Source: Lachnospiraceae bacterium
GTDB lineage: Bacteria > Bacillota > Clostridia > Lachnospirales > Lachnospiraceae
DNA length: 64,000 bases
Reading direction: 5' to 3'
Assembly: GCA_022769665.1 (NCBI GenBank)
Contig: JALEIR010000016.1
Coordinates: 1-64,000, forward strand
The position numbers and the translations under genes are program-made. Below the pieces are notes generated by a model. The model was not told where the DNA came from. It saw only the letters and a program-made list of their open reading frames with translations, and made no database searches. Positions 4,753 through 51,150 of the stretch are shown one piece after another; position 1 is the stretch's first letter, and each line of letters begins with the position of its first letter.

Positions 4753-4792
4753 AAAAAAGGCATAATGACCGAACCATTACGCCTTTGTAACG
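4753..4792 (-). promoter_or_regulatory. Leader attenuator: RAAGGC-loop hairpin overlapping a terminator
   Basis: On the minus strand, CGTTAC-AAAGGC-GTAATG (4792 down to 4775) makes a 6-bp stem with a hexaloop AAAGGC. Its 3' half is also the 5' arm of a terminator, AAGGCGTAATG / CATTATGCCTT (4785-4757, one mismatch), followed by six T (4758-4753). The two structures are mutually exclusive. A loop with A at position 1 and G at position 4 matches the pattern bound by ANTAR-domain antiterminators. No second upstream hairpin is evident. Confidence 0.7.
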
Positions 4793-4805
4793 TTAATACT
4801 TTAAT

Positions 4806-4834
4806 AGAATAATATATAAAAGTGTATAGGTCAA
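4806..4834 (-). promoter_or_regulatory. Promoter of the AGCS symporter gene
   Basis: On the minus strand TTGACC (4834-4829), a 17-bp spacer and TATTCT (4811-4806) precede the attenuator hairpin by about 13 bases. Transcription should start near 4799, so the hairpin is at the very 5' end of the transcript. Confidence 0.6.
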
Positions 4835-4905
4835 GAAAAAAATTGTGAGAAAAGGGAAAATTGTGAAAAAAAAGGAAAATATATAAATGTAAAGTGGAGA
4901 GATTG

Positions 4906-4914
4906 TGGTATACT
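4906..4914 (+). promoter_or_regulatory. Extended -10 promoter for the beta-mannosidase gene
   Basis: TGGTATACT is an extended -10 element (TGnTATACT). No good -35 is seen 17 bp upstream, as is common with extended -10 promoters. It lies 65 bp before the ATG at 4979. Confidence 0.5.
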
Positions 4915-4926
4915 GTACATGTATGC

Positions 4927-4959
4927 ACTCGAAAACAGCCATTTGTTTTGGCTGCGAGT
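4927..4959 (+). promoter_or_regulatory. Stem-loop at the 5' end of the beta-mannosidase leader
   Basis: ACTCG (4927-4931) pairs with CGAGT (4955-4959) and CAGCCA (4936-4941) with TGGCTG (4949-4954), leaving an AAAA bulge on the 5' side and a 7-base loop. No T-run follows, so it is not a terminator. It would sit at the extreme 5' end of the mRNA and could be an operator or an mRNA-stabilising stem. Confidence 0.45.
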
Positions 4960-4978
4960 ACGGTAAAGGAGACAAACA

Positions 4979-7477
4979 ATGAATACGAAAGAACTGGGGA
5001 GCAAAAACGGACAGAATTGGAAAATGTGGGTGGACGGATGCGGTGAAGCATTGCCCGCAACGGTTCCGGGCAGTGTCTATCAGGATATGCTGGATAATGG
5101 GAGAATGGAAGATCCTTATTATCGGGACAATGAGTTGAAGGCGCTGGCTCTGATGGATCACGACTTTACCTATGCCACGGAGTTTGAGGTGCCGGAAGAA
5201 ATCCGAAACAGGGAAAGAGTCCTGCTTCGTTTTGAGGGAATCGACACAGTAGCGGATATTTATTTGAATGAAAAATTACTGGCCTCGGTCTGCAATATGC
5301 ACCGGACCTTTGAGTATTCCGTAAAGAAACTGTTGCGTGACGGATGGAACGAATTAAAGATAGTATTGCACTCACCAACCCGATATATTCAAGAGGCTTT
5401 TGAGGAGAGATTTATTGACGGAAGCTCAGATGCCATGAGAGGTTTTCCTTATCTGAGAAAGGCACACTGCATGTTTGGCTGGGACTGGGGTCCCCGTCTG
5501 CCGGATGCCGGAATTTGGAGAAAGGTAAGTTTGGTGGGATATGACATCGCCCGGCTGGACGGAGTGTACATTACACAGAAGCATACCGGTGGACAAGCCG
5601 GATTGAATTTCCGGGTTGATGTGGATAAGTGTGGCGAAGAACGAATTTTGTCCTTTGGAAAAGACAACAATAAGCTGGTTGGTTTGACTTATAACGTGAG
5701 AGTGACGGGACCGGATGGAAGACAATGGGAACTTTCAGGGGCAGTTGATAACACAATCATTATCGACAATCCTGATTTGTGGTGGCCAAACGGCTACGGA
5801 GAACAACCCCTGTACCGGGTAGAGGTGAAACTGAAAAAAGGCGATGAGGTGCTGGATATCTGGGAAAAGAAAATCGGCCTTCGAACCCTGACTGTTCATA
5901 TTGAAAAAGATGAGTACGGGGAATCCTTTGCCCATGAGGTTAACGGTGTAAGGATATTTGCCATGGGTGCGGATTACATCCCTGAGGATAATATTCTGTC
6001 CAGGGTAACGCCGGAGCGGACCAGGGACTTGCTGCAGCAGGCAAAAAATGCACACTTTAACTGTATTCGTGTCTGGGGCGGAGGTAACTATCCTTATGAT
6101 GCGTTCTGGGACATTTGTGATGAACTTGGCCTGATTGTGTGGGAGGACTTTATGTTTGCCTGCGCGGTTTATCAGCTGACGGATGAATTTGAGGAAAATA
6201 TAACGGCAGAGTTCGTGGATAATATCAAGAGAATCCGTCATCATGCATGTCTCGGTCTCTGGTGCGGCAATAATGAGATGGAATCCTTTGTAGTAAGCGG
6301 ACTCTGGGTCAGCAGGCAGCAGGAGAGAGCGGATTATATTAAAATGTATGAGTACATAATACCGAAAGTGCTGAAGGAGCATGACCCAAATACCTTTTAC
6401 TGGCCTTCCAGTCCCTCTTCAGGAGGAAGCTTCGACAATCCGTATGATCCTGACCGGGGAGATACACATTACTGGGATGTCTGGCACGGAAATAAACCGA
6501 TTACCGAATACCGTAAGTTCTTTTTCCGGTATGTGTCAGAGTTTGGGTTCCAGTCCTTTCCCTGTATGAAAACGGTGGAGAGCTTTACTGAGCCGGAGGA
6601 CAGAAATATTTTCTCCTATGTGATGGAGAAGCATCAGCGCAACAGTTCCGCTAACGGAAAAATTATGAATTACATGGAACAGACATATCTTTATCCCGGG
6701 AATTTCGATACCACACTTTATGCCTCACAGCTTTTGCAGGCAGAAGCTTTGCGGTACGGGGTAGAACATTTCCGCAGGAACCGCGGCAGATGTATGGGAA
6801 CCATTATCTGGCAGCTTAACGACTGTTGGCCGGTGGCAAGCTGGGCGACCATTGATTATTACGGAAAATGGAAAGCAGCACAGTACTATGCAAAAAGATT
6901 TTTTGCACCAGTGATGATTTCCTGCCAGGAAGAAGGTATTTTGACACAGGATACCAATCCCAATGCACAGCCTTATGAGGTGAAGAAATCCGTTCATCTG
7001 AATGTGGCAAATGAAACCATGCAGGAAAAGAAGGTGAGAGTGGAGTGGAATCTGAGGAATCGGAGCGGTGAGATTCTCAGAGGAGGTGATACCGTGGTCA
7101 CGGTTCCTGCATTGTCTGCAGTATGGCTGGAAAAAGAGGACTGTATGGACGCAAATCTGTACGAGGATTATGTGAGCTATGAGTGTTGGGATTATGACTG
7201 CACCGGACGGGAAGAACCATTGTCTCAGGGAACAGTTTTGTTTTGTCCTCCCAAACATTTCCGTTTTTTGAACCCTGAATTGACTGTGGATGTTGACGGA
7301 GATGAACTGGTGATTACATCAAAGGCTTATGCGAAATCTGTGGAAATACAGAATGAGGATGCGGATTTGCTGCTCTCCGACAATTATTTTGATATGAACG
7401 GGGGAACACAAAGGGTGAAAATCCTGAAGGGAGAACCCACAGGGCTGAAGGTGCGCAGCGTGTACGATATTCGATAA
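4979..7477 (+). CDS. GH2 beta-mannosidase
   Basis: An 832-residue glycoside hydrolase family 2 protein of the beta-mannosidase branch (retaining, releasing terminal beta-mannose from manno-oligosaccharides or N-glycan core). The N-terminal jelly-roll contains HDFTYATEFEVP and GIDTVADIYLN; FGWDWGPRLPDAGIW is a beta-mannosidase marker. The TIM barrel carries the likely acid/base Glu433 in WCGNNEME and the nucleophile Glu521 in YVSEFGFQSFP, then QLNDCWPVASWA. A C-terminal beta domain follows. ATG 4979 is preceded by AAAGGAG. There is no signal peptide, so it acts in the cytoplasm. It is monocistronic, ended by the hairpin at 7498-7529. With the GH95 gene nearby it suggests processing of imported host-type glycans. 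Confidence 0.92.
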   Translation: MNTKELGSKNGQNWKMWVDGCGEALPATVPGSVYQDMLDNGRMEDPYYRDNELKALALMDHDFTYATEFEVPEEIRNRERVLLRFEGIDTVADIYLNEKLLASVCNMHRTFEYSVKKLLRDGWNELKIVLHSPTRYIQEAFEERFIDGSSDAMRGFPYLRKAHCMFGWDWGPRLPDAGIWRKVSLVGYDIARLDGVYITQKHTGGQAGLNFRVDVDKCGEERILSFGKDNNKLVGLTYNVRVTGPDGRQWELSGAVDNTIIIDNPDLWWPNGYGEQPLYRVEVKLKKGDEVLDIWEKKIGLRTLTVHIEKDEYGESFAHEVNGVRIFAMGADYIPEDNILSRVTPERTRDLLQQAKNAHFNCIRVWGGGNYPYDAFWDICDELGLIVWEDFMFACAVYQLTDEFEENITAEFVDNIKRIRHHACLGLWCGNNEMESFVVSGLWVSRQQERADYIKMYEYIIPKVLKEHDPNTFYWPSSPSSGGSFDNPYDPDRGDTHYWDVWHGNKPITEYRKFFFRYVSEFGFQSFPCMKTVESFTEPEDRNIFSYVMEKHQRNSSANGKIMNYMEQTYLYPGNFDTTLYASQLLQAEALRYGVEHFRRNRGRCMGTIIWQLNDCWPVASWATIDYYGKWKAAQYYAKRFFAPVMISCQEEGILTQDTNPNAQPYEVKKSVHLNVANETMQEKKVRVEWNLRNRSGEILRGGDTVVTVPALSAVWLEKEDCMDANLYEDYVSYECWDYDCTGREEPLSQGTVLFCPPKHFRFLNPELTVDVDGDELVITSKAYAKSVEIQNEDADLLLSDNYFDMNGGTQRVKILKGEPTGLKVRSVYDIR

Positions 7478-7497
7478 AATACCCCATAAAAGGGAGG

Positions 7498-7529
7498 ATG
7501 CCAAGGAACCGGGTTCCTTGGCATTTATT
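7498..7529 (+). terminator. Intrinsic terminator after the beta-mannosidase gene
   Basis: A 13-bp inverted repeat (7498-7510 and 7512-7524, ATGCCAAGGAACC with its complement) is followed by TTATTA. The stem is strong but the T-rich tail is short. Confidence 0.7.
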
Positions 7530-7676
7530 ATGAAAAAGTTATTTAGTAAACAATTAACTGTGATTGGCTTTGTTTGGTGTAGTGCTTTATCTTATGGTCT
7601 TAGTATAGGATAAGAAAATGGATAAAAAATGATGATAAATTAAAGAATACTTGAATTAATTGTAAACAAAATATGA

Positions 7677-7706
7677 ACGAGACTGGTACCATGGTACCAG
7701 TCTCGT
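7677..7706. terminator. Perfect 30-bp palindrome between convergent genes, probable terminator
   Basis: Positions 7677-7690 are the exact reverse complement of 7693-7706 with a 2-base centre. The middle reads GGTACCATGGTACC, which is itself a palindrome. It sits 45 bp beyond the stop of the minus-strand cyclophilin gene. Tails on both sides are AT-rich but lack a clean T-run, so it may be a bidirectional terminator or a protein-binding operator. Confidence 0.5.
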
Positions 7707-7751
7707 TGATTAATTGTCTAATTATTCCAATTTTGCATACTAATTTTATAA

Positions 7752-8279
7752 TTATTTGTTTAATTTTTCGGGTTCCGGATAAGATTCCCCGAAGGTCTCC
7801 ACAGTTACGGTTTCCATGATCTGGGGCTCCAGAGGTCTGTCGCTCCAGTCGGTTCTGGTCTCGGCAATTTCATTTACGACATCCATACCCTCAATAACCT
7901 TTCCGAATGCAGCATAGCTGCCGTCCAGATGGGGCGCATTTTTGTGCATGATGAAGAATTGGCTGCCGGCGGAATCCGGATGCTGTGCTCTTGCCATGGA
8001 GAGAACGCCTTCAGTGTGCTTTAAGCTGTTTTCAAAGCCATTCATTGCAAATTCGCCTCTGATGCTGTAGCCGGGGCCGCCCATACCGGTTCCGTCGGGG
8101 CATCCGCCCTGAATCATAAAACCTTTGATTACACGGTGGAAAATCAGACCGTCATAAAATTTTTTGTTAATCAGACTGATAAAATTATTGACGGAGGTGG
8201 GAGCAATTTCAGGATACAGCTCGGCTTTGATGACATCTCCGTTTTTCATGGTAATGGTAACAATAGGATTTTGTGCCAT
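7752..8279 (-). CDS. Cyclophilin-type peptidylprolyl isomerase
   Basis: A 175-residue cytoplasmic cyclophilin that speeds cis-trans isomerisation of prolyl peptide bonds during folding. Typical motifs are present: FHRVIKGFMIQGGCPDGTGMGGPGY with the catalytic-site Arg and Phe, then SMARAQHPDSAGSQFFI and FGKVIEGMDVV. There is no signal peptide or lipobox, and the length is that of a single-domain bacterial PpiB-like enzyme. AAAGGA precedes the ATG (complement of 8277-8279). It is monocistronic and divergent from the GNAT gene. Confidence 0.93.
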   Translation of the reverse strand: MAQNPIVTITMKNGDVIKAELYPEIAPTSVNNFISLINKKFYDGLIFHRVIKGFMIQGGCPDGTGMGGPGYSIRGEFAMNGFENSLKHTEGVLSMARAQHPDSAGSQFFIMHKNAPHLDGSYAAFGKVIEGMDVVNEIAETRTDWSDRPLEPQIMETVTVETFGESYPEPEKLNK

Positions 8280-8333
8280 GGGAATTGTCCTTTCTGTAAA
8301 ATATATTTATAATATTGTTTTAAGAGCAAGATT

Positions 8334-8362
8334 ATTATAGCGTAAAACAAAAAGACCGTAAA
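8334..8362 (-). promoter_or_regulatory. Promoter of the cyclophilin gene
   Basis: On the minus strand TTTACG (8362-8357), a 17-bp spacer and a perfect TATAAT (8339-8334) lie about 55 bp upstream of the start codon. Confidence 0.55.
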
Positions 8363-8379
8363 GAGGGAAGTGGACAGGC

Positions 8380-9117
8380 GTGGGCTATTTGAAACAGATA
8401 AAAATACATACCGGAGGGCAGACCGGGATATTGTATGTGACAGACGATGAAAGTACCGCGAAGAGGTTGCGGGACAGTGGAGAAGCAGTATTAATCTATT
8501 TTCATGACGGTAATCGGAATATGGATTTTTCGGGATTTTTGTTCGGAGTGGAAGAACCCGAAAATCTGGATGAAGACTATGCGGAGAAGGTATACCGCAG
8601 ATTGAAAGGAATACCCTGGGATATTTTGGAGACGAAGCGGTGTAGGATTCGTGAGACAGTCCCGGAGGATGTGGATGCTTTCTATGAAATTTACAGTGAC
8701 CCTGCCATTACGGAATTTATGGAGGATTTGTACCCGGAGAAGGAGCAGGAGAAAGCATATATCAGAGAATATATTGAGAAGATATATACTTATTATGAAT
8801 TCGGGGTCTGGACAATTGTGGAGAAAAATACCGGTGATGTGATTGGCAGGGCAGGATTTTCTTATAGGGCAGGGTATGACGAACCGGAACTGGGATTTAT
8901 TATAGGAGTGCCCTGGCAGAGAAAAGGATATGCAGAGGAGGTGTGCAGGGCAATTCTGGATTACGGCTGGAATAATCTGTGCTTTGACAGGGTACAGGTG
9001 CTGGTAGAGACAGAAAACGAACCGTCTCTCAGGTTGTGTGATAAGCTGGGTTTTCACGGGGCAGATGAACTTACGATGGACGATAAGCGATATTTTCGGC
9101 TGATTTTGGAAAAATAA
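8380..9117 (+). CDS. GNAT family N-acetyltransferase with an extra N-terminal domain
   Basis: A 245-residue protein. From about residue 85 it is a GNAT acyltransferase of the RimJ/RimL-like kind: CRIRETVPEDVDAFYEIY, then GVWTIVEKNTGDVIGRAGFS, the acetyl-CoA loop WQRKGYAEEV and VETENEPSLRLCDKLGF. It should move an acetyl group from acetyl-CoA to an amine, but the substrate cannot be told. The first 85 residues are an unrecognised alpha/beta segment (GQTGILYVTDDESTAKRLRDSGEAVLIYFHD). The start is GTG 8380 with AGAGGGAAG upstream. It stands alone between the cyclophilin and amt genes. Confidence 0.8.
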   Translation: MGYLKQIKIHTGGQTGILYVTDDESTAKRLRDSGEAVLIYFHDGNRNMDFSGFLFGVEEPENLDEDYAEKVYRRLKGIPWDILETKRCRIRETVPEDVDAFYEIYSDPAITEFMEDLYPEKEQEKAYIREYIEKIYTYYEFGVWTIVEKNTGDVIGRAGFSYRAGYDEPELGFIIGVPWQRKGYAEEVCRAILDYGWNNLCFDRVQVLVETENEPSLRLCDKLGFHGADELTMDDKRYFRLILEK

Positions 9118-9135
9118 ATTTTTCTAAATTTTATG

Positions 9136-9164
9136 TTGACAGGAAAAAAAGTCGGTGCTATACT
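9136..9164 (+). promoter_or_regulatory. Near-consensus sigma-A promoter of amt
   Basis: TTGACA (9136-9141), a 17-bp spacer and TATACT (9159-9164). Transcription is predicted to start near 9171, just before the attenuator hairpin. Confidence 0.8.
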
Positions 9165-9175
9165 CCGATACATAA

Positions 9176-9213
9176 AGCGAAGGCGCTATGGAGATGTCCA
9201 TAGTGCCTTTTTT
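9176..9213 (+). promoter_or_regulatory. Leader attenuator of amt: small hairpin overlapping a terminator
   Basis: AGCG-AAGG-CGCT (9176-9187; equally AGC with hexaloop GAAGGC) overlaps the 5' arm of an intrinsic terminator. The terminator has arms AGGCGCTATGGA (9181-9192) and TCCATAGTGCCT (9197-9208), one G-T pair, loop GATG, then a T-run to 9213. It lies between the promoter and the ATG at 9284, so full-length amt mRNA requires read-through. The same plan is seen upstream of the AGCS gene and the second glnN. Confidence 0.75.
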
Positions 9214-9283
9214 ATGGCGATGCGATGGGGCTTCGAAGGGAGAGCTCTGTGCGTCGCTAAATTTATTTGAGGAGGAAAAAGTT

Positions 9284-11050
9284 ATGACAGAAGAGATTAT
9301 GGAAGCGGTCAGCGGACAAGTTTTTGGTGTTTGGTTCCTGATTGGCGCAGCACTGGTGTTCTGGATGCAGGCAGGGTTTGCAATGGTGGAGACAGGCTTC
9401 ACAAGAGCAAAGAATGCCGGAAACATTTTGATGAAGAACCTGATGGATTTCTGTATCGGCACAGTAGTATTCATCCTGATTGGTTTCAGCCTGCTGCTGG
9501 GTGAAGATTTGGCAGGGTTTATCGGAAAACCCGGTTTTGACATCTTTACCGCTTATGAAAACTTTGATTGGTCCAATTTTGTATTTAACCTGGTATTCTG
9601 TGCAACCACGGCAACCATCGTTTCCGGTGCCATGGCAGAGAGAACAAAGTTTCTTTCCTATTGTATTTATTCCGCAGTGATTTCCGCTTTGATTTATCCC
9701 ATTGAAGCACACTGGATTTGGGGCGGCGGCTGGCTGTCTCAGCTTGGATTCCATGATTTTGCAGGTTCCTGTGCAATTCATATGGTTGGCGGTATCAGCG
9801 CTTTGGTTGGTGCAAAAATCCTTGGACCCCGTATTGGTAAGTTTACAAAAGATAAGGATGGTAAAATTACAAAGGTACATGCCTTCCCCGGACATAACCT
9901 TCCTATCGGCTGTCTCGGTGTATTCATCCTCTGGCTTGGCTGGTACGGTTTCAACGGTGCGGCTTGTACTTCCCTTGAACAGCTTGGCTCCGTATTTGTA
10001 ACGACAACCATTGCTCCTGCAATTGCAACTGTTGTATGTATGATTTTTACCTGGATTAAATATGGCAAGCCCGATGTATCCATGTGTCTGAATGCTTCCC
10101 TTGCAGGTCTGGTAGCAATTACCGCTCCCTGTGATGTAACGGATGCTTTCGGTGCAATCGTAATCGGTGCGGTTGCCGGCCTGCTGGTTGTTTTCGGTGT
10201 TTGGCTTCTTGATTACAAATTGCATATTGATGACCCCGTCGGTGCAGTTGCAGTTCACTGCCTGAACGGTATCTGGGGTACCATTGCAGTCGGACTTTTT
10301 GCAACCAATACTGCTCCCGGATATGCAATTGCCGATGCAAACGGTGTTGAGCTTACCGGTCTTTTCTACGGCGGCGGAATCAAGCTCCTCGGACTCCAGC
10401 TTCTTGGATTTGTTACTGTGGCAGCATGGACAGTTATTACCATTACCATTACCTTCCTGGTAATTAAAGCGATTGTAGGACTTCGTGTTTCCGAAGAAGA
10501 GGAAATTGTTGGTCTGGATGCAAAGGAGCATGGTCTTGCATCTGCATATGCAGGCTTCTCCATTATGGATGTTTCCGAAGGTATGATGAGTGTCAACGAG
10601 AATACAGATCTTGGAGAAGACGATTATGTAGCGGCTTCCGATACCAAGAAGGCAGCAGCAGTTCCTGTTGTGGAAGTTCCTTCCGCAGCCGCAACCGGAA
10701 TGTACAAGGTAGTCATCATCGCAAAGATGAACAGATACGATACTCTGAGAAAAGCCATGAACGATTTGGGCGTAACCGGCATGACAGTAACCAACGTTAT
10801 GGGCTGTGGTATCCAGAAGGGTGCCGGCGAGATGTATCGTGGCGTTGAGATGGATGCAACACTGCTGCCCAAGATTAAGGTAGAGGTTGTTGTCAGCAAG
10901 ATTCCTGTAGCTCAGGTAATTGAAGCTGCGAAGAGAGCTCTGTACACCGGTCACATCGGTGATGGCAAGATATTTGTTTACAATGTAGATAAGGTAGTAA
11001 AGGTTCGTACTGGCGAGGAGGACTTCGCCGCATTACAGGACGTAGAGTAG
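9284..11050 (+). CDS. amt: Ammonium transporter Amt fused to a PII signalling domain
   Basis: A 588-residue fusion. Residues 1 to about 405 are an ammonium channel with around 11 membrane segments: MVETGFTRAKNAGNILMKNLMDFC, HWIWGGGWLSQLGFHDFAGSCAIHMVGG, and the pore His region DPVGAVAVHCLNGIWG. An acidic/Ala-rich linker follows. Residues 472-588 form a PII (GlnB/GlnK) domain: MYKVVIIAKMNRYDTLRKAM, a T-loop GAGEMYRGVEMDATLLPK, and the C-terminal IGDGKIFVYNVDKVVKVRTGEE. The Tyr uridylylated in enteric PII (Tyr51) is Met here, while the ATP/2-oxoglutarate-site residues look kept. ATG 9284 is chosen for its GAGGAGG site; an in-frame ATG at 9188 falls inside the terminator hairpin. The PII domain probably gates the channel in cis. 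Confidence 0.93.
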   Translation: MTEEIMEAVSGQVFGVWFLIGAALVFWMQAGFAMVETGFTRAKNAGNILMKNLMDFCIGTVVFILIGFSLLLGEDLAGFIGKPGFDIFTAYENFDWSNFVFNLVFCATTATIVSGAMAERTKFLSYCIYSAVISALIYPIEAHWIWGGGWLSQLGFHDFAGSCAIHMVGGISALVGAKILGPRIGKFTKDKDGKITKVHAFPGHNLPIGCLGVFILWLGWYGFNGAACTSLEQLGSVFVTTTIAPAIATVVCMIFTWIKYGKPDVSMCLNASLAGLVAITAPCDVTDAFGAIVIGAVAGLLVVFGVWLLDYKLHIDDPVGAVAVHCLNGIWGTIAVGLFATNTAPGYAIADANGVELTGLFYGGGIKLLGLQLLGFVTVAAWTVITITITFLVIKAIVGLRVSEEEEIVGLDAKEHGLASAYAGFSIMDVSEGMMSVNENTDLGEDDYVAASDTKKAAAVPVVEVPSAAATGMYKVVIIAKMNRYDTLRKAMNDLGVTGMTVTNVMGCGIQKGAGEMYRGVEMDATLLPKIKVEVVVSKIPVAQVIEAAKRALYTGHIGDGKIFVYNVDKVVKVRTGEEDFAALQDVE

Positions 11051-11087
11051 CTTTCATCTTAATCCCTTAGTTTAGTATATCGGAAAA

Positions 11088-11143
11088 CCGCATATTACCA
11101 AGTATGCGGCAGGCCCCGGGTGCTTCCACCACCCGGGGCTTTT
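11088..11143 (+). terminator. Terminator region after amt (two hairpins)
   Basis: A minor hairpin (CCGCATA 11088-11094 with TATGCGG 11103-11109) is followed by a strong one: GCCCCGGGTG (11113-11122) pairing with CACCCGGGGC (11130-11139), then TTTTCC. The second is the functional intrinsic terminator. Confidence 0.8.
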
Positions 11144-11266
11144 CCGTGCTCTTGAAATCTTCTGCTGCACTTGAGTAGGGAAAGATTAGGGTTGCTGAAT
11201 TGATTATCAGGTGCTAATGTAAAATATGTTGAAGCTATCACTTGATTTTAGGGAGCACAAAAAGCA

Positions 11267-12643
11267 ATGGATGTTAAGGAACAAATTGTAGAAAAAGAAA
11301 ATAAAATTACCGAGGGGATCATCTGGAAACAGTTGCTCCTCTTCTTTTTCCCTATTTTATTCGGAACCTTCTTTCAACAGCTCTACAATGCGGTGGATGC
11401 GGTTATTGTAGGCCGGTTTGTTGGAAAAGAAGCACTGTCTGCTGTGGGAGGAGGTACCGGTACAGTTATCAATCTCCTGGTAGGCTTTTTTATTGGGCTG
11501 TCCAGCGGTGCAACGGTAGTTATTTCCCAGTATTACGGTGCTAAAAAGAGTGAATTGGTGGGTTATGCGGTGCATACGGCGATTGCCTTCAGCCTGGCGG
11601 GAGGCTTTGTCATGATGCTCATCGGTATTCCGCTTGCACCTGAAATCCTGAAAGCCATGAATACACCTGCCGATGTGTTGGAACCTTCCATTCTTTATAT
11701 TCGAATTTATTTTGCCGGAATTATTGGAAATCTGATTTATAACGTAGGTTCCGGCATCTTACGGGCGGTGGGGGATTCCAAAAGACCGCTGTATTTCCTG
11801 ATAGTAGGCTGTTTTTCCAATATTTTGCTGGACTTATTGTTCGTTGTGGGATTTCAAATGGGAGTGGCAGGCGCAGCACTTGCTACAATCTGCTCCCAGC
11901 TAATCAGCGCTGTAATGGTTATTATTGTGCTGATGCGCACAGAAGATATGCACCGGTTGGAACTGAAAAAGATTGGTTTTGACAAAAGAATGTTCGGGCG
12001 GATTATCCGTATCGGTTTTCCGGCGGGACTTCAGTCCGTTATGTACAGCCTCTCCAATATCATTATCCAGGCTGCTATTAACGGAGAGGGTACAAACACA
12101 GTGGCAGCATGGACAGTTTATGGGAAGTTGGATGTAGTATTCTGGATGTGTATCAATGCTTTCGGAATTTCCATCACTACCTTTGTGGGGCAGAATTACG
12201 GAGCCAATAAACTGCAACGTGTACGGAAAGGAATCCGAAGCTGCCTTGGGATGAGCTTTGCTGCCACGATTGTAATTTCCGGATTATTGTATTGGGGCTG
12301 CGGAGGAATTTACCGTATGTTTACCACCGACAGTGAAGTGCTGAGAATCGGTGTGGAAATGACAAGATTTCTGGTACCCACTTACATTACTTATGTATGC
12401 ATAGAAATTCTTTCCGGTGCTTTGAGAGGAGCGGGAGACGCTTGGATTCCTACCCTGATTTGCCTGACCGGAATCTGTGTTATTCGTGTGGTCTGGATTA
12501 TGGCGGCAGTTCCCCGTTGGCCCGGTATCAATACCATCATGTTCAGCTATCCCCTGACATGGGTTATCACCACTGTTATGTTTTTGATTTATTATTGTTT
12601 TTTCAGTAAAATCAGTATACGTAAGACCGGAAAGGCAGAATAG
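11267..12643 (+). CDS. MATE family multidrug/cation efflux transporter
   Basis: A 458-residue membrane protein with about 12 hydrophobic segments, typical of MATE exporters that use a Na+ or H+ gradient to expel organic cations or drugs. Family features include LFFFPILFGTFFQQLYNAVDAVIVGRFVGKEALSAVG near residues 20-60, GILRAVGDSKRPLYF, and in the second half IGFPAGLQSVMYSLSNIIIQ, GQNYGANKLQRVRKG and GALRGAGDAWIPTL. Both six-helix halves are present, so it looks intact. ATG 11267 has a modest GGGAG site. It appears monocistronic. The substrate is not predictable. Confidence 0.9.
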   Translation: MDVKEQIVEKENKITEGIIWKQLLLFFFPILFGTFFQQLYNAVDAVIVGRFVGKEALSAVGGGTGTVINLLVGFFIGLSSGATVVISQYYGAKKSELVGYAVHTAIAFSLAGGFVMMLIGIPLAPEILKAMNTPADVLEPSILYIRIYFAGIIGNLIYNVGSGILRAVGDSKRPLYFLIVGCFSNILLDLLFVVGFQMGVAGAALATICSQLISAVMVIIVLMRTEDMHRLELKKIGFDKRMFGRIIRIGFPAGLQSVMYSLSNIIIQAAINGEGTNTVAAWTVYGKLDVVFWMCINAFGISITTFVGQNYGANKLQRVRKGIRSCLGMSFAATIVISGLLYWGCGGIYRMFTTDSEVLRIGVEMTRFLVPTYITYVCIEILSGALRGAGDAWIPTLICLTGICVIRVVWIMAAVPRWPGINTIMFSYPLTWVITTVMFLIYYCFFSKISIRKTGKAE

Positions 12644-12675
12644 TCAAAATTGCGGGATATTTGAGGCGCAACAGG

Positions 12676-42277: not shown

Positions 42278-42286
42278 GGTTACGAT

Positions 42287-44428: not shown

Positions 44429-44438
44429 TGAGCCATGC

Positions 44439-44499
44439 TGCGCTAATGAATTACACGGTTTGAGCTTGCTCAAAACCGTGCTGATTCATTGTAAGCGCA
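44439..44499. repeat. Long imperfect palindrome downstream of the RNase J gene
   Basis: Nested arms can be followed from TGCGCT (44439-44444) and AGCGCA (44494-44499) through AATGAAT / ATTCATT and CACGGTTT / AAACCGTG to a GAGC-TT-GCTC tip (44468 region). There is no T-run, so it is not a normal terminator. It immediately precedes the direct-repeat region and looks like one end of a REP- or MITE-like element. Confidence 0.65.
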
Positions 44500-44506
44500 A
44501 TACGGC

Positions 44507-44536
44507 GAAGCCGTACTCGCGAGATGAAGTGCGAAG
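44507..44536. repeat. 30-bp direct repeat, copy 1
   Basis: Matches copy 2 (44661-44690) with two differences (GATGAA against GGTGGA). Copy 1 is overlapped by two GCGAAGC mini-hairpins: 44505-44511 in TACGGCGAAGCCGTA and 44531-44537 in GTGCGAAGCAC. Confidence 0.75.
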
Positions 44537-44550
44537 CACGAAATCGAGAG

Positions 44551-44660
44551 AGGCATGGCGAATATATGCCGGGAGCATGGCGAATGTATGCCGGGAGCAT
44601 GGCAAATGTGTGTAGAGAGGTATGGTGAATGTATGCTGAGAGAATGGCGGAACAATGCAC
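44551..44660 (+). repeat. Five 22-bp tandem units
   Basis: Units start at 44551, 44573, 44595, 44617 and 44639. The best unit reads GAGCATGGCGAATGTATGCCGG when units are aligned; the first two are closest and the last is degenerate. Each early unit has a GGGAG-like ribosome site next to ATGG and a GGCAT/ATGCC-type small hairpin. Since 22 is not a multiple of three, successive ATGs lie in different frames. Confidence 0.75.
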
Positions 44661-45022
44661 GAAGCCGTACTCGCGAGGTGGAGTGCGAAGAAAGGAATCA
44701 TGCGAACAATTTAAATCAGGCGGTTGATGATTTGGTATCAGCAATCCTGGAGAGCGACGTGTATTTGACTTATCGTACAGAACTGGATAAAGTGAAGCAG
44801 GTTCCGGGACTGAAGAGTCAGATTGATGAATTCCGCATGAGAAATTTTGCCTTACAATCAAGTATGGACAATGACTTTGATAAGCTGGATCGTATAGAAA
44901 AGGACTATGAAGATTTCAGGGCAAATCCGCTTGTGGCTGATTTTCTGGCAGCGGAGCTCGACTTGTGCAGAATGATACAAGGTATTGATATGCGTATTAC
45001 GGCAGAATTGAAGTTTGAATAG
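44606..45022 (+). CDS. YlbF family protein with a repeat-derived N-terminus
   Basis: The conserved part (from about 44708) is a YlbF/YmcA-type helical protein: LNQAVDDLVSAILESDVYLTYRTELDKV, LKSQIDEFRMRNFALQSS and FLAAELDLCRMIQGIDMRITAELKF. In B. subtilis YlbF with YmcA and YaaT forms a complex that helps RNase Y mature mRNAs; an RNase gene directly upstream fits RNA metabolism. The reading frame continues upstream through the repeat element to 44555. There is no in-frame ATG between 44633 and the conserved domain. ATG 44606 is chosen since GGGAG lies eight bases before it; ATG 44633 and GTG 44678 are alternatives. The first 30-35 residues (CVERYGECMLREWRNNARSRTRE) are repeat-encoded. Confidence 0.75.
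   Translation: MCVERYGECMLREWRNNARSRTREVECEERNHANNLNQAVDDLVSAILESDVYLTYRTELDKVKQVPGLKSQIDEFRMRNFALQSSMDNDFDKLDRIEKDYEDFRANPLVADFLAAELDLCRMIQGIDMRITAELKFE
44661..44690. repeat. 30-bp direct repeat, copy 2
   Basis: Second copy of the 44507-44536 repeat, exactly 154 bp (seven times 22) downstream. The flanking bases no longer form the GCGAAGC mini-hairpins. This copy lies inside the ylbF reading frame. Confidence 0.75.
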
Positions 45023-45048
45023 ACTTTTGGAAAGAAATGAGGAGCAGT

Positions 45049-45498
45049 ATGAAATCAAGTAACATAGTATTGGCCGTTTTCGGCGCAATTTTCAGAGTGG
45101 TTGTGGCAATCCTGGCTGTCATGCTGATTTACCGTGGGGCAATGGCCTGCTATAATTATGGTTACCGTATTTTTACGGAACCGGCGATTTCCTCCGGAGA
45201 GGGAAGAACCGTCACTGTTGCGGTTACGGAAAGCATGTCACCCTCTGAGATTGGAAAACTTTTTGAGAGCAAGGGCCTGGTTCGGGATGCAAGACTGTTT
45301 ACACTGCAGTATTATTTATCTGAATTTAAGGCAGATGTGAAGCCGGGAGTTTTTGAATTGAGTACAGCCATGACCGCCGAGGAGATGATGGAGGCTATGA
45401 CGGTGACAGAGGAAGAAGAAAGCGGGGAAGGTACAAAGGATACAACCGCAGAAAGCACGGAAGCAGCCGGAAATGGTGCAGGCGATACCGAAAAGTAG
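45049..45498 (+). CDS. Short MltG-like membrane protein (YceG N-terminal part only)
   Basis: A 149-residue protein with one membrane segment (VVVAILAVMLIYRGAMACYNYGY) and a small extracytoplasmic domain like the LysM-type start of MltG (TVTVAVTESMSPSEIGKLFESKGLVRDARLFTLQYYLSEFKADVKPGVFELSTAMTAEEMMEAM). In full-length MltG (about 350 residues) the catalytic lytic-transglycosylase part with its key Glu follows; here an acidic Glu/Thr/Ser/Gly tail takes its place. It is therefore unlikely to cut glycan strands and may be a regulatory or binding form. The position before trmR-trhP equals that of mltG (yrrL) in B. subtilis. GAGGAG precedes ATG 45049. Confidence 0.8.
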   Translation: MKSSNIVLAVFGAIFRVVVAILAVMLIYRGAMACYNYGYRIFTEPAISSGEGRTVTVAVTESMSPSEIGKLFESKGLVRDARLFTLQYYLSEFKADVKPGVFELSTAMTAEEMMEAMTVTEEEESGEGTKDTTAESTEAAGNGAGDTEK

Positions 45499-45507
45499 GA
45501 GAAACTG

Positions 45508-46158
45508 ATGATTATTGATGAGAGAATGGCTGCCTTTATTGATTCCCTGGATAGGGGGAATACTCCGTTCCTTGATGAAATTGAAAAATATGCCATAGAG
45601 ACACAGGTTCCTATTATACGAAAATCCATGCAGAGCCTGTTAAAGTTTTTATTGGCATTCTCAAAGCCGAAGAAAATCCTGGAGGTCGGGACTGCCATCG
45701 GCTTTTCTGCGTTATTGATGAGCGAATACGGACCCGAAGACTGCCATATAACAACCATTGAAAAGTATGAAAAACGGATACCCGTAGCAAAAGAAAACTT
45801 TCGGCGCGGCGGTGCGGAAAACCGTATCACCCTGTTGGAGGGAGATGCCACAGATATCTTAAAGGAACTGGACGACACCTATGATATGATATTCATGGAT
45901 GCAGCCAAAGGCCAATACATTCATTTCCTTCCGGATATTTTACGACTGCTTGCCCCGGGCGGACTGCTTGTCAGCGATAACGTGCTTCAGGACGGAGACA
46001 TCATCGAATCCCGGTTCGCAGTGACCCGCAGAAACAGGACCATCCATGCCCGCATGCGGGATTATCTCTATGAACTCAAACACCATCCTGACCTGGAGAC
46101 CGTCATCCTCCCCGTGGGCGACGGAGTAACCCTGAGTGTAAAGAGCCATGACAGATAA
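45508..46158 (+). CDS. trmR: tRNA 5-hydroxyuridine methyltransferase TrmR
   Basis: A 216-residue class I SAM methyltransferase of the O-methyltransferase (YrrM) family. Motifs: MQSLLKFLLAFSKPKKILEVGTAIGFSALLM (SAM loop), ITTIEKYEKRIPVAKENFRRGG, LLEGDATDILKELDDTYDMIFMDAAKGQY (metal/SAM Asp) and LLVSDNVLQDG. In B. subtilis this protein converts 5-hydroxyuridine at wobble position 34 to 5-methoxyuridine. The next gene is a U32 protein of the TrhP type that makes the 5-hydroxyuridine, so both steps are encoded together. Length and position match the yrrM locus. Confidence 0.9.
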   Translation: MIIDERMAAFIDSLDRGNTPFLDEIEKYAIETQVPIIRKSMQSLLKFLLAFSKPKKILEVGTAIGFSALLMSEYGPEDCHITTIEKYEKRIPVAKENFRRGGAENRITLLEGDATDILKELDDTYDMIFMDAAKGQYIHFLPDILRLLAPGGLLVSDNVLQDGDIIESRFAVTRRNRTIHARMRDYLYELKHHPDLETVILPVGDGVTLSVKSHDR

Positions 46159-46223
46159 GCAGATTGCAAATTTACAGGGCAATGTATGGCATGCAGACGC
46201 CCGTAGTGTTTGGAGGAATAGAA

Positions 46224-47528
46224 ATGTTACGACAAAAACCCGAACTCCTGATTCCCGCCAGCAGCCTTGAAGTGCTGAGAACGGCGGTTATCTTCGGAGC
46301 AGATGCAGTATACATCGGCGGAGAAGCCTTCGGACTTCGTGCCAAAGCGAAAAATTTTTCCATGGAGGAAATGGCGGAGGGAATTGCCTTTGCACACGCC
46401 CATCAGGTAAAAGTGTATGTCACGGCAAATATTCTGGCTCACAATTACGACCTGCAGGGTGCAAAAAAATACTTTGCCGAACTGCGGGATATGAAGCCGG
46501 AACCCTGTGATGCCCTGATTATTTCGGATCCCGGTATGTTTACACTGGCAAAAGAGGTTTGGCCGGAAGTGGAAATCCATATTTCCACACAGGCAAATAA
46601 TACAAACTACATGACCTATCAGTTCTGGTGGAAACAGGGTGCAAAGCGCGTTGTGTCCGCCAGAGAACTGTCCCTGGCGGAAATAAAGGAAATTCGCAGA
46701 CAGATTCCCGAAGAAATGGAAATCGAAAGCTTTGTTCATGGAGCCATGTGCATATCTTATTCCGGCCGATGCCTTCTCAGTAATTATTTTACGGGCAGAG
46801 ATGCAAACAAAGGAGCCTGTACTCATCCCTGTCGTTGGAAATATGCTGTTGTGGAGGAAACCAGACCGGGAGAATATCTCCCTGTTTATGAGAATGAAAG
46901 AGGTACTTATATTTTCAATTCCAAGGATTTGTGTATGATTGAGCATATCCCCGAACTGGTAGATGCCGGTATTGACAGCCTGAAGATAGAGGGGCGAATG
47001 AAGACTGCACTTTATGTTGCCACAGTGGCAAGAACCTATCGGAAGGCTATCGATGACTATTTCGAGTCGGAAGAGACATACCGCAGTCATTTGAATTGGT
47101 ACAGACAGGAAATATCAAAGTGTACCTACAGACAATTCACCACAGGCTTCTATTTCGGAAGAACCGATGAAAATACACAGATATACGACAACAACACGTA
47201 CGTCAATGAATATGTTTATCTGGGAATTGCGGAGGAAGTAAAACGTGCGGCGGATACTCCTGTGACCGCTGAGGATAAGGACAGCCTTTTGGTGCATTTT
47301 GAACAGCGAAACAAGTTCTCCGTGGGAGAAAAAATAGAAATTATGAAGCCGGACGGGAATAATGTTCCGGTAACGGTGGAAGCCATGTACGATGAAAACG
47401 GAGATGCTGTGGACAACTGTCCTCACTCCAAACAAAAGCTGTGGGTAAAACTGTCGGCAGAGGCTGACAGGTATGATCTGCTTCGCCGAAGTGCTTTTCC
47501 CGGTTCATTTCAATCGGACAACATTTAG
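46224..47528 (+). CDS. trhP: U32 family protein, tRNA 5-hydroxyuridine synthase TrhP
   Basis: A 434-residue member of peptidase family U32. Motifs: PELLIPASSLEVLRTAVIFGADAVYIGGEAFGLRAKAKNFS, VWPEVEIHISTQANNTNY, AKRVVSARELSLAEIKEI, and the signature ESFVHGAMCISYSGRCLLSNYFTGRDANKGACTHPCRW with Cys residues that may hold an iron-sulfur cluster. The C-terminal domain (YLGIAEEVKR...) is the usual beta barrel. TrhP proteins use prephenate for hydroxylation of U34 of tRNA. Start ATG 46224 has GGAGGA at 46212-46217; upstream in-frame ATGs lie in the trmR-trhP gap. Confidence 0.9.
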   Translation: MLRQKPELLIPASSLEVLRTAVIFGADAVYIGGEAFGLRAKAKNFSMEEMAEGIAFAHAHQVKVYVTANILAHNYDLQGAKKYFAELRDMKPEPCDALIISDPGMFTLAKEVWPEVEIHISTQANNTNYMTYQFWWKQGAKRVVSARELSLAEIKEIRRQIPEEMEIESFVHGAMCISYSGRCLLSNYFTGRDANKGACTHPCRWKYAVVEETRPGEYLPVYENERGTYIFNSKDLCMIEHIPELVDAGIDSLKIEGRMKTALYVATVARTYRKAIDDYFESEETYRSHLNWYRQEISKCTYRQFTTGFYFGRTDENTQIYDNNTYVNEYVYLGIAEEVKRAADTPVTAEDKDSLLVHFEQRNKFSVGEKIEIMKPDGNNVPVTVEAMYDENGDAVDNCPHSKQKLWVKLSAEADRYDLLRRSAFPGSFQSDNI

Positions 47529-47591
47529 ACATATCGGATGAAGCGCTGTCAATGGACAGTTTTGAAGGTGCGAGGAGATTAAGAAGGGCAG

Positions 47592-48752
47592 ATGGATAAA
47601 AAAAGAGTATCAAGGATTGCGGTACAAATACTGATTATTAGTTACGGATTTGCCTGCCTTTGGCTGTTTTATCATCAGTCTGTGGCAGAATTGTCGGCAG
47701 CGGGCGCCACTCCTTATCAGTCGGATTTGCCGCTGCATATCAGCATGATTGTGGAAGACGGATGGTATTACAGCTTTACAGCCTACGCGTACAAGCTGCT
47801 TTACCTGCTGTTTGGGGGCAGCACAGCCGGAATTGCGGCGATGCTCGCGATTGTTGCAACGGCGACGGTTTATGCGACAGAATCCCTTGTCTGTTATCTG
47901 GGAAAATATACTGACAAGAACTGGTATACTCTGCTTCTGGCGCTGAGCCTGAATCTTGTTATGCCGGTATATCTCAGGGTGGTGGGTGAGTACCGGTATG
48001 TCAGCTATCAGTGCGGAAATATCTGGCATAACTCCACTTATTTATGTATGCGGCTTGTGGCATTGATTACACTACTGTATTATTTCCGCCTGGAAAAAAA
48101 ATACAGACAGGGAATTACGTGGAAAGAATGGTGTGTCTTTGCCCTGCTGAATATCTTGTGTACGGGTATAAAGCCCAGTTTTCTGGTAGTGTTTTCGCCT
48201 ATTGTTGGAATTTTTCTGCTGGTGGATTTGTTCAGGCATGTCCCCTTAAAGCGGATTCTTTTGTTCGGTTCCGCGCTTTTGCCCAGCGGTCTTGTCATTT
48301 TATGGCAGAATGCGGTTCTTTTTGGAGAGTCAACGGGAAACGGTATTGCTTTTCAGCCCTGGTATACCTTTTCGCTTCATGCCAATATTACAAAGCTGGC
48401 GGTGGTCTGTTCCCTGTTGTTTTGTATCTGTGCTGTGGCAGTTATGGTAAAGCAGCTTGCCTGTGATGCGGATTACCGTTTTATTGTGCTGATGTCCGTG
48501 CTTGGTTTTCTGGAAGCACTTTGTCTTGTGGAGAGCGGCAACCGCTCCGTAGACGGTAATTTTCTCTGGGGCTACAGCTTCTGTCTGTTTGTTCTCTTTG
48601 CTGTCTGTGCCGTTAAATGGTTGCAGCTTGGGAAAACGAAACTGCAGGGAGCATTGCGCGTAGGCCTTGGATTACTGTACGGATGGCACTTGTACTGCGG
48701 CCTGTACTATTTTGTAAACTTGGTAGCGGGAGCAAGCTACTGGATGAAGTAG
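47592..48752 (+). CDS. Hypothetical polytopic membrane protein
   Basis: A 386-residue protein with about 10 hydrophobic segments and no family I can name with confidence. After the first helix an external loop reads ATPYQSDLPLHISMIVEDG, recalling the short acidic-His loops of GT-C glycosyltransferases, but the match is weak. Other features: a Lys/Arg-bearing loop RLEKKYRQGITWKEW and a C-terminal helix pair. It follows trhP by 63 bp. A promoter for glnN lies just after it. A sugar-transfer role is only a guess. Confidence 0.6.
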   Translation: MDKKRVSRIAVQILIISYGFACLWLFYHQSVAELSAAGATPYQSDLPLHISMIVEDGWYYSFTAYAYKLLYLLFGGSTAGIAAMLAIVATATVYATESLVCYLGKYTDKNWYTLLLALSLNLVMPVYLRVVGEYRYVSYQCGNIWHNSTYLCMRLVALITLLYYFRLEKKYRQGITWKEWCVFALLNILCTGIKPSFLVVFSPIVGIFLLVDLFRHVPLKRILLFGSALLPSGLVILWQNAVLFGESTGNGIAFQPWYTFSLHANITKLAVVCSLLFCICAVAVMVKQLACDADYRFIVLMSVLGFLEALCLVESGNRSVDGNFLWGYSFCLFVLFAVCAVKWLQLGKTKLQGALRVGLGLLYGWHLYCGLYYFVNLVAGASYWMK

Positions 48753-48817
48753 ACAAATGCCGGTATTAATTGAAAATATGGAGAAGCTTTATATGACTGA
48801 GACGGACGGTGCAGGAC

Positions 48818-48847
48818 TTGACCGGGACGGCGTGTCTATTGTACAAT
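48818..48847 (+). promoter_or_regulatory. Promoter of the first glnN gene
   Basis: TTGACC (48818-48823), an 18-bp spacer and TACAAT (48842-48847), 48 bp before ATG 48895. In contrast to the second glnN, no terminator-type leader lies between this promoter and the gene. Confidence 0.55.
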
Positions 48848-48894
48848 AAATTTTATTTAAGGCTGTTGAGTAAACTAAATTAGGGAGAGAGAGA

Positions 48895-51006
48895 ATGAGC
48901 GAAGTATTAGATGTGGAAGATCTTTTCGCCAGTAAGGTTTTTACTCTCGGAAAGATGAAAGAAAGGTTACCGAAAAGTACTTACAAAGAGGTAACGAAGG
49001 TGATGGATCAGGGTGGTGAACTGTCCCTGGCAGCTGCAGACGTAGTTGCAAAGGCAATGAAGGATTGGGCTGTTGAGAACGGTGCAACCCATTATACACA
49101 CTGGTTTCAGCCTCTGACCGGCATCACTGCGGAAAAGCATGATGCATTTGTAACACATCCTGATGAGGAAGGCAGGATGATTATGGAATTTTCCGGCAAG
49201 GAGTTGATTAAAGGAGAGCCTGATGCATCTTCCTTCCCTTCCGGAGGCTTGCGCGCTACCTTTGAGGCAAGAGGATATACCACCTGGGATATTACCTCTC
49301 CCGCCTTTATCAAGGAGACGGCAACAGGCCCAACACTCTGTATTCCTACGGCATTTTGCTCCTACACGGGAGAGGCACTTGACAAAAAGACTCCTCTTCT
49401 GCGTTCCATGGAGGCATTGAGCCGTCAGGCAATCCGGATTGTGCGCCTGTTCGGAAATACGGAGGCGAAGAAGGTGACGGCTTCCGTGGGAGCAGAACAG
49501 GAATATTTTCTGGTTGATGCAAAAAAGGCATTGCAGAGAGAGGATATCATATTCGCCGGCAGAACCCTGTTCGGTGCACCCGCACCCAAGGGTCAGGAGA
49601 TGGATGATCACTATTTCGGTGTCATTCGGGAAAGAATCGGTGGATTTATGCATGATGTGAATGTGGAGCTTTGGAAGCTCGGGGTCACATCGAAAACCCA
49701 GCATAATGAGGCTGCCCCTGCACAGCATGAGGTGGCGCCCATCTATGAGTCCGCAAATGTGGCGGTAGACCATAATCAGCTTGTGATGGAGACTTTGAAG
49801 CGGGTTGCGGGCAAGCACGGCCTGCGCTGTATGCTGCACGAGAAGCCTTTTGCAGGAGTCAACGGCTCCGGAAAGCATAACAATTGGTCCATCACGACCG
49901 ATACAGGCGTCAATTTATTGGAACCGGGACAGACTCCCAATGAAAATATTCAGTTTCTGCTTGTATTAGCCTGCATTATGAAGGCGGTGGATACCCACGC
50001 GGACCTTTTGCGACAGAGTGCGTCCAATGTTGGAAATGATCACAGACTCGGAGGTTATGAGGCACCACCGGCCATTATTTCCATCTTTTTGGGAGAACAA
50101 TTGGAGGATGTGGTAGAACAGCTGGTTGAGACAGGAAAAGCCGATTCCCTGAAGGAAGGCGGCGTCCTGCGTACCGGTGTATCTACTTTGCCGGATTTTG
50201 TAAAGGATGCAACAGATAGAAACAGAACTTCACCCTTTGCCTTTACCGGCAATAAATTCGAATTTCGTATGGTGGGCAGCGAAGACTCCATCGGCAGTCC
50301 CAATACAACCCTGAATGCGATTGTGGCGGAAGCCTTTTGCGAAGCAGCAGACAGACTGGAGCAGGCGGAAGATTTTGATATGGCGGTTCATGACCTGATT
50401 AAGGAATACATGACAAAGCACCAGAGAATTATTTTTAACGGTAACGGCTATGCACCGGAATGGCAGGAAGAGGCAGCAAGAAGGGGTTTGCCCAACATTC
50501 CTTCTATGGTAGAAGCGGTGGATTCCCTGACGACGGAAAAGTCTATCAGACTGTTTGAGAAGTTTGGAATTTTTACAGAGGCAGAGCTGCGTTCCCGCGC
50601 GGAGGTGCTTTATGAAACTTATGCAAAAACCATCAACATCGAAGCCCTGACAATGATAGATATGGCAAACAAGCAGATTATTCCTGCGGTTATGGGTTTT
50701 GCAAAATCCCTGGCAGACACCTCTCTGGCAGTAAAGGCTGCAGGCGGGGATGATTCCGTTCCGTCAGAGCTGTTGAAGACAATTACGGAGAAGCTGACGG
50801 AGACAAAGCAGGCGGTGAAGCATCTGGAGGAGGAAGAAAAAGCGGCTTTTGATATGCCCAGGGGCAAAGAGCAGGCTTTCCGCTATCACGATAAGGTGAT
50901 GGTGGCCATGAATGAGCTGCGTCGCCCGGCGGACGAACTGGAAAAGCTGGTGGATAAGACCTATTGGCCCTTCCCGACTTATGCGGATTTACTATTTGAG
51001 GTTTAA
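48895..51006 (+). CDS. glnN: Type III glutamine synthetase GlnN (copy 1)
   Basis: A 703-residue GSIII enzyme that joins ammonia to glutamate with ATP. Family features: [21 protein letters not shown] near the start, [87 protein letters not shown] and [24 protein letters not shown]. Length is that of the GSIII family, larger than GSI. A paralogue of identical length follows 183 bp downstream. GGGAGAGAGAG precedes the ATG. Over the first 100 residues the two differ at 7 positions; the last 100 differ at about half. Confidence 0.96.
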
Positions 51007-51034
51007 AAAGTTCAACTGTTCAGAAAAATAGGGC

Positions 51035-51063
51035 TTGCAATTCAAAAAGAATTGCTGTATAGT
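51035..51063 (+). promoter_or_regulatory. Promoter of the second glnN gene
   Basis: TTGCAA (51035-51040), a 17-bp spacer and TATAGT (51058-51063), giving a leader of about 120 bases. Confidence 0.7.
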
Positions 51064-51111
51064 AAATAACCAAAGAGGGAAGACCTCAATAATGAATATG
51101 CTTTTTAAGAG

Positions 51112-51150
51112 AAACGAAGGCGTTTACACAGGCAGTGTAGCGCCTTTTTT
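51112..51150 (+). promoter_or_regulatory. Leader attenuator of the second glnN: small hairpin overlapping a terminator
   Basis: AAACG-AAGG-CGTTT (51112-51125; equally AAAC with hexaloop GAAGGC) overlaps the 5' arm of a terminator with arms AGGCGTTTACAC (51118-51129) and GTGTAGCGCCT (51135-51145), followed by six T in all. Upstream a possible second hairpin is GAGG-GAAGA-CCTC (51075-51087). The pattern matches the amt and AGCS leaders. Confidence 0.75.

Follow-up and report, generated by a model that had tools for sequence, protein, structure and literature searches.

Introduction

The closest described counterparts of the leaders reported here are antitermination systems based on ANTAR-domain proteins. 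In Clostridium saccharobutylicum, ANTAR antitermination by NitR induces the genes for glutamine synthetase (GS) and glutamate synthase (GOGAT) on nitrogen limitation (PMC6316151), and computational searches have placed ANTAR targets at nitrogen genes coding for P-II, ammonium transporters, and glutamine and glutamate synthases (PMC3369931). For EutV, the structure paper gives one hexaloop as the minimal ANTAR site, says that what single hexaloops do awaits clarification, and names R142, K149, E160, Y164 and M172 as the residues that touch the fourth loop base (G4) or plug the loop (PMC8934654). The subject of this work is a set of single-hexaloop leaders in positions 1-64,000 of contig JALEIR010000016.1 (the whole stretch analysed, hereafter the window) from the genome of a Lachnospiraceae bacterium (GCA_022769665.1; 2.69 Mb, 93 contigs, 98% complete). 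They precede the genes for an AGCS symporter, for an ammonium transporter fused to P-II (amt-PII) and for a type III glutamine synthetase (glnN, the second of two copies), and are very likely one-hairpin, ANTAR-controlled transcription attenuators of nitrogen genes.

Like NitR, whose gene we take to adjoin glnA in C. saccharobutylicum, the ANTAR protein considered here is tied to glutamine synthetase regulation and is encoded next to glnA. Beyond the GS and GOGAT genes induced by NitR, the leaders also stand before type III glutamine synthetase (GSIII), amt-PII, AGCS and glnQ genes; those of relatives include leaders of purF, pyrG and asnB. The E. faecalis EutV/EutW system (PMC3369931) is matched in the hexaloop with G4 and mostly A1 that overlaps a terminator, and in the ANTAR domain, for which EutV is the best structural match; in contrast to that system, there is one hairpin instead of two, the receiver is without a phospho-acceptor, and several backbone contacts are replaced. 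The gene classes agree with those of the ANTAR-target RNAs predicted in PMC3369931. That search and the actinobacterial one of PMC8164766 both seek two stem-loops, so that a one-hairpin element falls outside their models. A first-pass annotation of the window had called ANTAR binding established for clostridial nitrogen genes; what the literature seen contains, computational targets and NitR, is less than was implied.

Results

Three leaders of one plan in the window

In each of the three leaders a promoter is followed by a short hairpin, whose RAAGGC loop is closed by C-G, and by a terminator beginning inside the hexaloop and ending GCCTTTTTT; this common plan had been described at first pass and was borne out. 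The pattern AAGGCG-N(4,30)-GCCTTTTTT was matched exactly three times in the 64 kb, each time at one of these leaders, against a mean of 0.01 in 100 dinucleotide shuffles, none of which reached three.

The AGCS leader lies on the minus strand, with a -35 box TTGACC (4829-4834) and a -10 box TATTCT (4806-4811) located by sequence and promoter scoring. The antiterminator hairpin TTAC-AAAGGC-GTAA (4777-4790; four base pairs (bp); A1/G4) begins 15 nucleotides (nt) downstream of the -10 box and has a stem also present in relatives L355 and L365; it is overlapped by an intrinsic terminator (4753-4786; fold z -3.25, pattern match), and the gene behind it (3265-4719) encodes a member of the sodium:alanine symporter family (PF01235). 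On the plus strand, the amt-PII leader has its boxes, found in the same way, at 9136-9141 (TTGACA) and 9159-9164 (TATACT), the latter 11 nt upstream of the hairpin AGC-GAAGGC-GCT (9176-9187; only 3 bp; G1/G4; pattern and model match), and its terminator at 9179-9213 (fold z -5.38), followed by the fusion gene (9284-11050; PF00909, PF00543). The glnN leader, also on the plus strand and with boxes assigned likewise (TTGCAA, 51035-51040; TATAGT, 51058-51063), is long: the -10 box lies 48 nt upstream of the hairpin AAAC-GAAGGC-GTTT (51112-51125; G1/G4; pattern match, model score 28.0 bits), and about 42 nt of predicted RNA precede the stem. Its terminator (51117-51150; pattern match) has a weaker fold z of about -1.9. 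The assignment of the AGCS loop AAAGGC to A1/G4, and of G1 to the other two, agrees with the first-pass annotation. Promoter scores, of a possible 12, were 11 for amt (TTGACA-17-TATACT) and 9 each for AGCS (TTGACC-17-TATTCT) and glnN (TTGCAA-17-TATAGT); of the good promoters once ascribed to all three leaders, that of amt stands and the other two are only fair.

The hairpin and the terminator compete on paper for the AAGGCG strand, as had been proposed: the two folds overlap, and the terminator is the stable state in all three window leaders, by at least 14 kcal/mol over the small hairpin alone. In the five leaders known in this genome (the three above, and those before glnA and a glnQ-type gene described below) the terminator fold has -14.8 to -22.8 kcal/mol, against +0.3 to -2.3 kcal/mol for the small hairpin alone. 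As the terminator is so much more stable, OFF should be the default state as long as nothing keeps the hairpin in place.

The glnN gene with the leader (plus strand, 51190-53301; Pfam GSIII_N) stands in tandem with a first type III glutamine synthetase gene (plus strand, 48895-51006; Pfam), to which it is 80% identical; the tandem spans 48895-53301. The antitermination leader is found on the second copy only, the first having no model match upstream and serving as the comparison copy. From their sequences, the two would form a natural pair, one unswitched-looking and one switched.

A leader and an ANTAR gene at glnA

The genome contains one ANTAR gene (PF03861, E 2.4e-15), coding for a protein of 182 residues with a receiver-like domain and an ANTAR domain. 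An ANTAR gene linked to a glutamine operon, for which a search had been proposed at first pass, is present here directly behind glnA: it starts 43 nt past the stop codon of this type I glutamine synthetase gene, and the operon carries a matching leader of its own (TTGACA-18-TATGAT, seven bases, GGAC-AAGGGC-GTTC, then a terminator) with the A1/G4 loop AAGGGC. The adjacency was examined in a set of 101 glnA-ANTAR loci, made up of the own locus and the 100 best-matching relatives; glnA adjoins the ANTAR gene in 100 of these, the remaining locus being a 679-base contig end. A dapF-like (diaminopimelate epimerase) gene follows glnA-ANTAR in the own locus (L001, 577-1455).

In the 101 aligned proteins, no Asp or Glu was found at the place of EutV Asp54 (positions 52-55) or in the usual acidic pocket (positions 7-10, placed by alignment with EutV), and the conserved receiver Lys is mostly Met (76/101). 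With the phospho-acceptor lost, phosphorylation appears an unlikely signal for the main ANTAR type. Among the EutV residues that contact G4 or plug the loop, the equivalents of K149, E160 and M172 are invariant (101/101), that of Y164 is His in 86, Phe in 8 and Tyr in 7, and that of R142 is not conserved, so that the residues for G4 recognition are largely kept in the glnA-linked protein. The structure predicted for a close orthologue, taken from a named locus (predicted local distance difference test, pLDDT, 89.1; predicted template modelling score, pTM, 0.64) had EutV as its first two matches in the PDB (E about 2e-10; template modelling score 0.53-0.61).

Alignment, covariance model and further leaders

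The region upstream of glnA was readable in 99 of the 101 loci. A strict detector (four paired bases, a loop R..G.., and an overlapping terminator with a T run) found the element in 28/99, two of them (L126, L069) via another hairpin, against 0/99 in each of five shuffles; a looser pattern, with L126 dropped, found it in 41/99. L126 and a far-upstream pattern match in L042 were judged spurious and dropped before alignment. Alignment A1 was composed by hand from 31 of the 41 elements (30 from relatives and the own one; L039, L050, L053, L063, L079, L088, L090, L093, L108 and L125 were left out). In A1, 88.7% of the cells of the terminator helix are paired and seven pairs are changed on both sides; the antiterminator stem is 100% paired by selection and is no independent test of pairing. 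A covariance model of the terminator structure was built from A1 only; it knows the sequence of the antiterminator 5' arm and does not score the pairing of that arm.

With this custom model, one of the checks foreseen at first pass, the window leaders rank 1 to 3 at 28.0, 25.7 and 16.6 bits (E 0.0003, 0.001 and 0.16). A fourth window match (62232-62265, plus strand, 14.3 bits) is without the hairpin 5' arm and is probably an ordinary terminator. The genome scan returned the glnA leader, a training member, at 47.4 bits, glnN at E 0.0135 and AGCS weakly at E 7, and gave a fifth leader before a glnQ-type amino-acid ABC transporter ATPase gene (AAAC-AAAGGT-GTTT, 39.3 bits); the amt leader was missed by the fast first scan. 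Three weak matches in the own genome were set aside by eye: L142 (in a reading frame), L141 (without the 5' part) and L143 (before glyA). In a plain pattern search of the own genome, a reversed control pattern was commoner than the pattern itself, which makes that search uninformative.

No Rfam 15 family reached threshold in the leaders scanned; overlaps below threshold, Srn266 in L203 (E 0.27) and alpha tmRNA in L139 (E 0.81), were at chance level and were rejected. Elsewhere in the window, Clostridiales-1 RNA (RF01699) was matched at 44433-44558 (plus strand) with 44.5 bits, its gathering score being 48.

Conservation of the stem and the loop

Pairing was judged fairly on 64 leaders outside the training set, namely the 60 best matches not at glnA loci and the four own leaders other than that of glnA. 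All four stem pairs are present in 57/64; 2000 shuffles of the 3' arms averaged 39.3 and never exceeded 46. The loop letters in these leaders are A1 57 and G1 7, A2 64, G4 64, G5 62 and C6 61, counts that are partly model-biased since the model favours these letters; the conservation in relatives on which the first-pass annotation had staked the element holds, G4 being present in every one of the 64. In a scan of named genomes, the best 80 of 553 relatives gave 80 glnA-linked ANTAR loci, by title largely Acetatifactor and other Lachnospiraceae and partly overlapping the family survey below in organisms. A same-strand model match upstream of the ANTAR gene was obtained in 60 of the 80; the other four of the 64 match rows were three opposite-strand mirror matches and one downstream match. 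Loci with the element include those of Lactonifactor longoviformis DSM 17459 (L331) and Kineothrix sp. MSJ-39 (L298). The 53 glnA leaders of these loci that are not in training have G4 in 52 and A1 in 51, and their stems are paired in 53/53 against 49.9 in shuffles, the stems being too little varied to test pairing.

Element matches also occur before amt homologues in 21 of 30 loci of close relatives, the own locus included. The stems of these leaders include AGC/GCT, CGC/GCG, ATC/GAT and AAC/GTT around a nearly constant loop, a variety that is illustrative only, the 25 stems having been selected for pairing (a second match in L396 was left out).

Co-occurrence with ANTAR domains

The family survey covered 150 genomes from 149 genera; a model match was counted at E 0.02 or better, weak matches being lost to the filters, and kinship was ignored in the statistics. 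The main ANTAR protein was matched in 118 genomes, an ANTAR domain in 131 and the element in 116. The element is present in 113 of the 131 genomes with an ANTAR domain and in 3 of the 19 without (Fisher p about 1e-9); at E 0.001 the counts are 87/131 and 1/19. In the single ANTAR-less genome that matches at E 0.001 (G137), glnA runs off the contig, so that the assembly may not include its ANTAR gene. No match to the main ANTAR protein was obtained in 32 genomes; 13 of these have another ANTAR domain, 12 of them with the element, and the others are the 19 with none.

A divergent ANTAR set (L334-L353) was taken from genomes in which the main type has no full match. The gene adjoins glnA in 20/20; the phosphorylation site, readable in 11, is without Asp in 10 and has it in L336. 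The RNA element was found in 17 of these 20 genomes, which were partly chosen for having it.

These counts bear on the possibility that the RNA switch is read by another protein or by none, and that the ANTAR link reflects shared ancestry only. Some room is left for it in that binding to ANTAR is something we infer here, some EutV RNA-contact residues are changed, and the association ignores kinship. It is nevertheless very improbable, as within one family the element follows ANTAR (113/131 against 3/19), and where the main protein is missing it is found with another ANTAR domain (12/13) far more than with none (3/19); moreover, the hexaloop is of the A1/G4 type known for ANTAR, and the protein keeps the residues for G4 recognition.

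The wider class gave matches at E 0.001 in 34 of 245 genomes; 236 of the genomes searched lie outside the family, and 30 of the matching ones are among these. Twenty of these matches were read and include, by start sequences, leaders of glnA, type III glutamine synthetase, P-II and amt genes, some with less clear promoters. A hexaloop like that of the first hairpin of two-hairpin targets (P1) lies within 45 nt in 4/20 of these leaders, mostly 25 nt or more away.

One hairpin or two

Room for a P1 was assessed in 105 leaders (41 glnA, 60 others and the four own). A good promoter match was found in 77, and in 70 of these 5-15 nt separate the end of the -10 box from the stem. Taking 17 nt as the estimated minimum for a first hairpin and linker, just 5/77 have at least that much RNA before the stem, which leaves no room for P1 in 72/77. 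P1-like hexaloops within 40 nt upstream were counted in 7/105, no more than in shuffles (mean 5.45, range 1-9), with a detector uncalibrated on known two-hairpin leaders.

That these are canonical two-hairpin ANTAR attenuators, with an overlooked first hairpin and a true start further upstream, is accordingly quite improbable, given the position of the -10 boxes and the shuffle-like frequency of upstream P1-like hairpins. In its favour, EutV-type targets have two hexaloops (PMC3369931), and in the own genome the glnN leader offers the length needed, with a small hairpin present upstream. This hairpin (GAGG-GAAGA-CCTC), in which the first-pass annotation had seen a possible first hairpin, does exist and was rejected as a canonical P1 for its five-base loop and its distance of 24 nt. 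One defining feature of dual-hexaloop ANTAR RNAs, P1, is thus missing from the element, which otherwise resembles them and should work in a similar way.

Genes behind the element

The next gene was read behind 59 of the 60 best matches outside the fetched glnA leaders, one match being at a contig end, and 47/59 are nitrogen or glutamine genes (Pfam). They comprise 26 glutamine synthetases (24 type III, 2 type I), 10 P-II genes, three ABC ATPases, and two each of glutamate synthase, PurF-like, asparagine synthase and CTP synthase genes; the P-II count is taken to include three Amt proteins, because the seven others start like stand-alone P-II. Several of these products are glutamine-using enzymes, which suits a regulon governed by glutamine status. 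The remaining genes encode five circularly permuted ATP-grasp proteins, two PPDK-type proteins, a diaminopimelate epimerase, a LuxR-type protein, a glycosidase and two proteins without family; AGCS symporters number 0 among the 59.

The ATP-grasp genes (PF14403/PF04174) were assigned to L177, L186, L198, L202 and L220 by their similar start sequences, and L237, from another family, starts alike; the nitrogen regulon may thus include this protein, whose role is unclear. The diaminopimelate epimerase gene with its own copy of the leader is in G035 (L175).

The make-up of this gene list speaks to the view that the elements are ordinary promoter-proximal terminators with chance small hairpins and no regulation. 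The terminators do dominate the folds, and AGCS taken alone is not significant genome-wide; all the same, the probability of this view is close to negligible, with 47/59 genes in nitrogen or glutamine metabolism, a loop and competing stem conserved with compensatory changes, and three elements in the window where 0.01 were expected.

Discussion

The best reading of these data is a new form of ANTAR antitermination of the NitR/EutV kind, in which a single hexaloop near the RNA 5' end of nitrogen genes would be captured by a pseudo-receiver ANTAR protein. A description of a one-hexaloop element was not found in the literature searched, which covers few subscription papers and not the NitR work. 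The one-hairpin ANTAR variant first suggested from the window is supported by the linked ANTAR gene, the glnA-operon leader, loop conservation and co-occurrence.

RNA polymerase is predicted to start a few bases upstream of the hairpin, which has 3-4 bp and a C-G-closed hexaloop (consensus A-A-R-G-G-C). Left alone, the RNA would refold into the overlapping terminator and stop about 40 nt on. Under nitrogen shortage, as we infer, the ANTAR protein encoded behind glnA would bind the hexaloop as the hairpin emerges, recognising G4, and would keep the AAGGCG strand out of the terminator; read-through would then supply glutamine synthetases, amt-PII, the AGCS symporter and glnQ. Antitermination by one hexaloop is probably phosphorylation-independent. 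As the receiver is without the usual phospho-acceptor, the signal is probably conveyed through contact with a second nitrogen protein, such as glutamine synthetase or PII, by analogy with TnrA and GS in B. subtilis (PMC6316151). Going further, one may tentatively picture a large kinase-free regulon in which an ANTAR protein with a pseudo-receiver, sensing nitrogen status through contact with GS or PII and perhaps poised near the initiating polymerase, captures a single 5'-end hexaloop without a recruitment hairpin.

Several points weigh against the one-hairpin ANTAR reading. By the looser pattern, 58/99 glnA upstream regions are without the element (many such glnA genes sit inside longer operons, as seen by eye in 40 inspected, not counted), and 18/131 ANTAR genomes gave no element match. 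Of all members, AGCS has the lowest model score (16.6 bits), and a strict match was found before only 4/30 of its homologues, own included; two other matching homologues share the TTAC/GTAA stem, and some more altered versions were noted by eye. A1 is common and not strict, two of the five own leaders (amt and glnN) having G. The transcription starts are predicted from consensus promoters, and 28/105 leaders have no promoter good enough to judge. In the protein, Asp or Glu is common at receiver positions 12-13 (91 and 74 of 101), beside the lost pocket. The RNA-backbone contact R168 of EutV is Gln in 101/101, N173 is mostly Asp (86), R175 mostly Gly (89) and R177 mostly Asn or Ser (51 and 25), and the equivalents of K143 and K147 are not conserved. 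For EutV itself, linker changes lower induction in E. faecalis (PMC3369931); each hexaloop binds alone, and P1 is retained for recruitment and regarded as necessary in vivo (PMC8934654), a requirement from which the present leaders depart.

The leaders provide a set of naturally occurring one-hexaloop attenuators, placed where the RNA is predicted to begin and present in one family as well as in some others of the class; they are short and lend themselves readily to in vitro tests. As no Rfam 15 family reaches threshold in those scanned and the element lies outside dual-hairpin models, a nitrogen regulon in many anaerobes may have escaped notice.

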